Below are positions 804 through 1,057 of a stretch of 64,000 nucleotides of DNA, piece by piece. The notes beneath the pieces are model-generated. The model saw only the letters and a list, made by a program, of their open reading frames with translations. It had not been told where the DNA came from and searched no databases. Within the stretch, counting starts at the first letter, position 1, and each line of letters starts with the position of its first letter. A program made the translations under genes and the position numbers. Source of the stretch: Chionoecetes opilio (lineage: Eukaryota; Arthropoda; Malacostraca; Decapoda; Majidae); contig JACEEZ010024145.1 of assembly GCA_016584305.1 (NCBI GenBank), positions 1-64,000 on the forward strand, read 5' to 3'.

Positions 804-1057
804 AAGGTTTAACTTAGCCGTGGATGTTTTTGAGAGTTAGGTCTCGTAAGCAGGGACCAACAACAGAGCCACGTTGCCCAGCAGGAGACCACGAAGAGGT
901 GTAAACCTTTAAACTATGTCCAATATGACGTTATTAATGCCTTACTCGCCACGCATGGCTGTCATTGCGTCATAAATGGATTGAAACTCTCCCAAGAGAG
1001 TCCTGAGAGGGTGTCTCTCAGGTCGTTCCCCTTAAGAGAGTCATAGTTACTCCCGCC
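804..1057 (-). ncRNA. HDV-like self-cleaving ribozyme of R2 type
   Basis: All elements of the HDV double pseudoknot are present in order on the minus strand. P1 pairs GGCGGGAG (1057-1050) with CTCCTGCT (887-880), with two G-U pairs. P2 pairs AAGGTTTA (909-902) with TAAACCTT (811-804). P3 pairs ACC (900-898) with GGT (890-888) around the 7-nt loop TCTTCGT. GGGCAAC (879-873) directly follows P1, as in HDV. P4 is closed by GTGG (872-869) and CCAC (823-820). The joining strand GGCTAAG (819-813) supplies the expected catalytic C. The linker between P1 and P2 is about 140 nt and holds the rest of the 28S leader plus local hairpins. The predicted cleavage point is just 5' of base 1057, which is also where 28S identity begins. 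Activity is inferred. Confidence 0.9.
1030..1057 (-). other. 28-nt 28S rRNA leader
   Basis: Minus-strand bases 1057-1030 match the conserved 28S rRNA segment just upstream of the R2 insertion point, ending in CTCTCTTAAGG. From 1058 outward the sequence stops matching 28S, where GTTTACCC would be expected on the plus strand. The identity is therefore exactly 28 nt and is bounded by the ribozyme 5' end on one side and the R2 junction on the other. Confidence 0.88.

Follow-up and report, generated by a model that had tools for sequence, protein, structure and literature searches.

A dispersed family of short R2-type elements with a 28S rRNA leader and a predicted HDV-like ribozyme in the crab Chionoecetes opilio

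The window, the 64,000-nt stretch of DNA analysed here, begins at base 1 of contig C18889. Its minus strand carries, from position 1057 downwards, the 5' part of a short R2-type element whose 3' end lies off the contig. The following features were located in and beside this element, with their basis in brackets where one applies.

1058..2143, no strand assigned: non-28S flank upstream of the element (no LSU match in the window; LTR-like ends at 2143-2811)
1030..1057, minus: 28S rRNA leader, 28S -28 to -1 relative to the R2 nick (28/28 identity; printed and host 28S)
1050..1057, minus: P1 5' strand GGCGGGAG, with predicted cleavage between 1058 and 1057 (pairing, fold, 5' ends of related copies)
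910..1049, minus: J1/2, 140 nt, containing the remaining leader and a 9-nt leader repeat GACTCTCTT (1002-994)
902..909, minus: P2 5' strand, paired with 804-811 (pairing across copies)
888..900, minus: P3 hairpin, 900-898 with 888-890, and a 7-nt loop UCUUCGU at 897-891 (98.8% of cells paired across copies)
880..887, minus: P1 3' strand CUCCUGCU (pairing, fold, alignment)
873..879, minus: GGGCAAC joining strand, P1.1 region (largely conserved in alignment A1)
819..873, minus: P4 (873-869 with 819-823) and L4 (pairing, fold, alignment)
812..819, minus: J4/2 strand GGCUAAGU, with the predicted catalytic C at 817
804..811, minus: P2 3' strand (pairing; alignment)
1..803, minus: rest of the visible element body, running beyond the contig start (homology to other genome copies)

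The 28S leader and predicted ribozyme of the window copy

Minus-strand positions 1057-1030 read GGCGGGAGTAACTATGACTCTCTTAAGG and were identical at 28/28 positions to 28S rRNA from -28 to -1 before the R2 nick. The 28S reference was checked against a printed 28S (PMC12180492), Table 3 of PMC4370867 and the host's own 28S (L050). Identity stops on both sides: 28S carries C at -29 and T at +1, whereas the window carries G at each of the two positions. The 27-nt GGCGGGAGTAACTATGACTCTCTTAAG (1057-1031) had a single mismatch-free occurrence in the 64-kb window, and no match at three or fewer mismatches was obtained in 100 shuffles. No LSU rRNA match at gathering level was found in the 64-kb window, so that the window copy, as far as the contig shows, does not lie inside a 28S gene. 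It adjoins a non-28S flank and belongs to a dispersed family of short elements, which an earlier note on this DNA had overlooked. A stretch with LTR-like ends (TGTTA...TAACA) at 2143-2811 is preceded by AAGGGGGGATAG, and 1058..2143 is perhaps the internal part of an oppositely oriented LTR element adjoining the R2-type element. Within J1/2, the 9-nt repeat of part of the leader (a length reached in 2/500 shuffles) fits the published proposal that 28S duplications decay inside J1/2 (Eickbush, Burke and Eickbush 2013, PMC3774820).

Minus-strand positions 1057-804 contain all parts of an R2-type HDV-like ribozyme. P1 is formed by 1057-1050 with 880-887 (8 bp, the first pair being G.U), GGCTAAG (GGCUAAG in RNA) lies at 819-813, and the C at 817 is the predicted catalytic cytosine by analogy with published R2/HDV ribozymes. 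By anatomy and pairing, the helices P1, P2, P3 and P4 and the J4/2 cytosine follow one another in the order of a nested double pseudoknot, and the P1 5' strand comes from 28S upstream of the R2 site, as at an R2 5' end. The earlier note had described the 28-nt leader, on this strand and at these positions, together with P1, P2, P3 with its 7-nt loop, GGGCAAC, P4 and GGCTAAG in that order, and the 28S comparison and pairing analysis agreed with it throughout. From this anatomy and pairing, we predict that this region is an HDV-like self-cleaving ribozyme.

The 7-nt P1' was fully paired at a single place in 911-1200, at base 1057. A pseudoknot-free fold to which no structure was supplied formed P1 (pair probabilities 0.83–0.92) and also P4 (0.59–0.65). 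A loose core descriptor without P1 found one place in the window, against 3 hits in 60 shuffles and 38 in 2000; when P1' complementary to GGCGGGA was added, there was 1 hit in 2000 window shuffles. Among Rfam models, only RF02682 matched, at 18.9 bits (gathering threshold 44; E = 1.5 in 2 kb), which is background, and no HDV-type match at E ≤ 5 was present in the whole 64-kb window. The RF02682 model makes no provision for a long J1/2, which led to mispairing of P1 in its match, and this curated model is a weak test for a ribozyme with a 140-nt J1/2. Covariance at background level had been named in the earlier note as evidence against a ribozyme. That was the outcome with Rfam's general model, and it is outweighed by the pairing and covariation in the family alignment.

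This alignment, A1, held 28 of 40 genome copies; the other 12 were omitted because one or more of leader, core and J4/2 could not be located in the expected order. Standard pairs were formed in 93.8% of 657 cells, compared with 40.6–52.5% when the strands were slid by one to three columns. Shuffling the 3' letters among sequences gave a mean of 92.9% paired, and 4/500 shuffles reached 93.8%. Changes on both sides affected 5 of 24 pairs (1/500 shuffles reached that) and 8 cells (0/500 shuffles), while further pair types were no more numerous than in shuffles (123/500). The double change seen most often replaces A-U by G-C in P2; it occurs in four rows and counts as one event because all four belong to one subfamily. 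With several duplicates of single loci among its rows, A1 indicates modest covariation.

P1' varied among copies (UCCUGCU, UUCCGCC, UCCUGCC, UCCCGCU and UCCCGCC), and most rows still paired with the 28S strand. P1 had the lowest paired share of the helices (88.8%), with breaks mostly at the outer pairs because trimmed 5' ends place flank bases there. Among 18 copies, leader positions 9–27 differed by 5.1% (129 of 2528 compared, with 13% of cells gapped), the remaining J1/2 by 19.6%, the core by 14.0%, and the first eight leader bases by 20.9% because of trimmed ends. Five of these 18 leaders matched at 27/27, and the others had at least one change or gap. The low value of 5.1% would be explained if source copies had their leaders renewed from 28S; the alternative would be selection on the leader.

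A dispersed family and its 5' ends

The 254-nt ribozyme region gave 47 match rows at 40 places in the genome (seven rows were second pieces), and a query from a diverged subfamily (L045) gave 25 further places, some of them partial. There are thus at least 65 places with the ribozyme region, from the best 40 of 61 and the best 40 of 56 candidates scored. Among the matches listed in the L045 search, 20 of 41 rows begin at the first leader base. All 39 places other than the window in the first search were read, with about 7 kb taken from each if the contig was long enough, and 28S sequence upstream of -28, within three mismatches, was present at 0/39.

Element bodies align over about 1.2–1.5 kb, differ by up to about 30%, and have two kinds of 3' end (A-type and B-type). 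The window body is homologous to other genome copies down to about window position 5 (query 1053). Its minus strand has no frame of at least 60 codons below position 804. No single R2 ORF (zinc finger, Myb, reverse transcriptase, endonuclease) was seen in the window body or the fetched copies, some of which hold runs of N. Frames of at least 180 codons in the fetched loci lay only outside the mapped bodies, at body ends or in N runs, and the frames of at least 50 codons in the body of L018 measured 54–104 codons. As no R2 ORF was seen, the family was not classed as autonomous R2. With a length of about 1.2–1.5 kb, a conserved ribozyme and no R2 reading frame, the elements resemble R2 SIDEs. 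Two chance ORFs of the element, used as protein queries, gave no match; neither did scans for the leader and two pieces of the body in viral contigs, nor plasmid blastn. Separately, two viral contigs (L001 and L002) match the R2/HDV-like ribozyme core pattern.

A leader could be anchored in 29 of the 40 copies (39 and the window) and in none of the other 11. Several loci are duplicates sharing flanks, and the 29 represent 20 independent 5' flanks. Each flank was represented by its best-preserved member. On this basis the element started at -28 in nine, at -29 in one, at -27 in two, at -26 in four, and at -25, -23, -21 and -19 in one each; the -29 start consists of a single matching base, expected by chance in one case out of four. 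L018, which has a small leader deletion and begins at -28 with one mismatch, was not counted. None of the 20 sites extends past -29 into 28S, and four start 3–9 nt inside -28. The earlier note had suggested that the genomic copy keeps what a cut at -28 would leave, and it had named 28 nt upstream as an R2 cleavage position inside 28S. The first idea was borne out at family level, 10/20 independent sites starting at -28/-29 and none reaching further into 28S; the second is published, as the most frequent R2 cleavage position (PMC3774820). If a self-cleaved RNA were reverse-transcribed, such a pile-up at the base predicted by the ribozyme fold, with otherwise only shorter ends, would be expected. 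The start base is shared by about half of the 20 insertions, likely as the predicted ribozyme trims the RNA before insertion. Target-site duplications were clear in only 2/20 copies, some of which share a flank, the ends of L013 and L014 being approximate.

A second 28S-like segment, an 18-mer across the R2 nick, lies inside the element body of the window (97-80, minus; 16/18; 0/1000 shuffles). It was rejected as a 3' junction, since the similarity beyond +12 lacked significance (reached in 279/2000 shuffles) and the stretch is inside the body common to other copies. The 18-mer may be either a fossil piece of 28S or a chance match.

28S-linked copies and the origin of the leader

Two copies have a 3' junction to 28S at the R2 nick, exact in L042 and diverged in L024; the other 3' ends lie outside 28S. 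In L042 the LSU match reaches model position 3399 of 3401, and no leader of its own was found. In L024 the leader is exact and begins at -28, the 5' flank is not 28S, and the 3' end is followed by diverged 28S (LSU match 2403-2992); a read-through RNA of a 28S-resident copy, cut at -28, would account for L024. Copies with downstream 28S point to co-transcription with 28S. On contig C15575, a 28S half-site is followed 1.3 kb further by a family 3' end, and 62762-64354 is probably a family copy inside a 28S gene.

Of the best 40 rows among 73 candidates, 35 were 28S half-sites with one end close to the R2 nick. A pair 3.5 kb apart on contig C15393 marks a 28S-resident R2 (L050 and L051, of which 511 and 301 nt were read). 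Its 5' end holds an open frame, 77 codons of which were read, with a CxxC...H motif that we take to be an R2 N-terminus. The family and this R2 are alike in carrying 28S sequence, the resident R2 sitting at the R2 site. They differ in that the resident R2 has the open N-terminal frame and an A-rich 3' end, and its ends have only 28S sequence and A- or T-rich runs in common with the family. A further insertion of about 1 kb in 28S (L052; C16982 75150-76210) shares 81% identity with the 5' end of the 28S-resident R2 over 480 positions and appears from this to be another short R2 derivative; no similarity between it and the family was found.

Our main reading, to which we give a probability of about 0.8 on the sequence evidence, is that a self-cleaved RNA co-transcribed with 28S was copied by R2 protein in trans and inserted off-target with its leader kept. 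The source RNA would be a co-transcript with 28S from a family copy, and the ribozyme would cleave it at 28S -28, leaving the 28-nt leader at the 5' end. The helper would be R2 protein, which, acting in trans, would reverse-transcribe the cleaved RNA, and insertion would occur off-target, outside 28S. At a 28S target, the leader cDNA would anneal and be lost in a seamless junction; at a target elsewhere it could not anneal and would remain visible.

The leader might instead be a fixed part of an element now living and multiplying outside 28S, from dispersed sources and with no rDNA stage. The 0/39 fetched copies with 28S upstream would agree with this, as would the several loci that share flanks and are themselves duplicated, and the many copies with two 3' end types. 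We nevertheless consider it unlikely: leader positions 9–27, mostly outside P1, are far less diverged than the rest of J1/2 (5.1% v 19.6%), as expected with renewal (or selection), L024 and L042 carry downstream 28S, and a copy in 28S is probably present on C15575. It is also doubtful that a retroelement left the rRNA genes with a piece of 28S as its permanent 5' end, having a P1 that still uses borrowed 28S sequence and a 5' end that could be recreated from any transcript in which the element landed. The family could also consist of ordinary decayed R2-derived copies in which the ribozyme no longer works, given the lack of frames of at least 60 codons on the window's minus strand below 804 and the divergence of up to about 30% between copies. 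The ribozyme helices, however, are kept paired across diverged copies, which makes this quite unlikely for the family; individual copies, among them that of the window, may nevertheless have decayed.

The positions of the 5' ends bear on two further explanations. Recombination or repair at the DNA level could have moved pieces of 28S together with an R2-type insertion, with no RNA step, and this would suit the loci that are plain duplicates with shared flanks, the few target-site duplications and the downstream 28S of L024 and L042. Breakage of this kind predicts upstream 28S of variable length, whereas 0/20 sites pass -29 and ten lie at -28/-29, the P1 boundary; we disfavour it as very improbable. 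An assembly chimera, in which an R2 5' end was fused to sequence unrelated to it, might be suspected from the position of the window element at the very end of contig C18889, but breaks at -28/-29 in ten independent flanks would not arise in this way, and such an artefact is scarcely credible.

Relation to known R2 elements and other features of the window

R2 has been treated as almost strictly 28S-bound, and its upstream cleavage has been mapped on gels and at 28S junctions, in which a leader that has annealed cannot be seen. The leader is retained in insertions outside 28S, so the genome preserves the 5' termini of the RNAs that likely served as templates. If self-cleaved RNA was inserted off-target as we propose, the family reports the -28 cut in vivo by an independent route and shows the fate of a leader unable to anneal. 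It would also supply naturally occurring off-target insertions of R2 type, of relevance to gene insertion tools based on R2.

The R2 ribozymes described in PMC3774820 have an HDV-like fold, 28S in P1 and a long J1/2, and cut 9–36 nt upstream of the R2 site. The crab ribozyme is like them in its fold, its 28S-derived P1 5' strand, its long J1/2 and its predicted -28 cut. The ribozymes of that paper were studied at 28S insertions, whereas the -28 ends of the crab family were read from insertions outside 28S. A -28 ribozyme is also described in a stick insect (PMC4370867), and R2-type 5' ribozyme modules have been used for insertion (PMC11331408). Drosophila R2 SIDEs, as presented in PMC3414825, are likewise short, have a 5' R2 ribozyme and are thought to use the R2 machinery. 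The Drosophila element is 529 bp long, resides in 28S and has its cleavage site at its own 5' end; unlike it, the crab elements are longer, mostly dispersed, and start with 28S sequence.

Copies outside 28S are shared with the extra-rDNA R2 and R1 of Drosophila (PMC2718515). According to that report, full-length melanogaster-type R1 outside the rDNA array carries 7–28 bp of upstream 28S, and extra-rDNA R2 is seldom present and 1–2% diverged, with no ribozyme-defined leader described in the text available. R2NS elements (PMC5035012) are similarly R2-type and not restricted to 28S. They are given there as R2 lineages that have lost their target choice, whereas in the crab family no R2 ORF was seen and the 28S leader is kept. 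Crab, decapod and crustacea are absent from the main text, as available, of a 2026 survey of animal R2 (PMC13188248). No dispersed 28S-leader family was reported in the literature on R2 outside rDNA, R2 in crabs and crustaceans, and SIDEs, covered as titles and abstract starts with few subscription journals. The R2-type HDV-like ribozyme class and -28 cleavage are already known; the dispersed, 28S-tagged family is new.

Several other features were recorded elsewhere in the window. Matches to snRNAs, all on the plus strand, comprised U2 (10442-10634), U5 (13784-13897) and two U4 (21086-21226 and 52072-52212). An ORF at 27944-28546 (plus) has a DDE_Tnp_4 transposase domain. Two LINE copies with long reverse transcriptase frames lie at 35159-37672 and 57442-59085 (plus), and the ORF at 57970-59082 in the second matches Chionoecetes opilio proteins, the best at 96–99% over 38–75% of its length.
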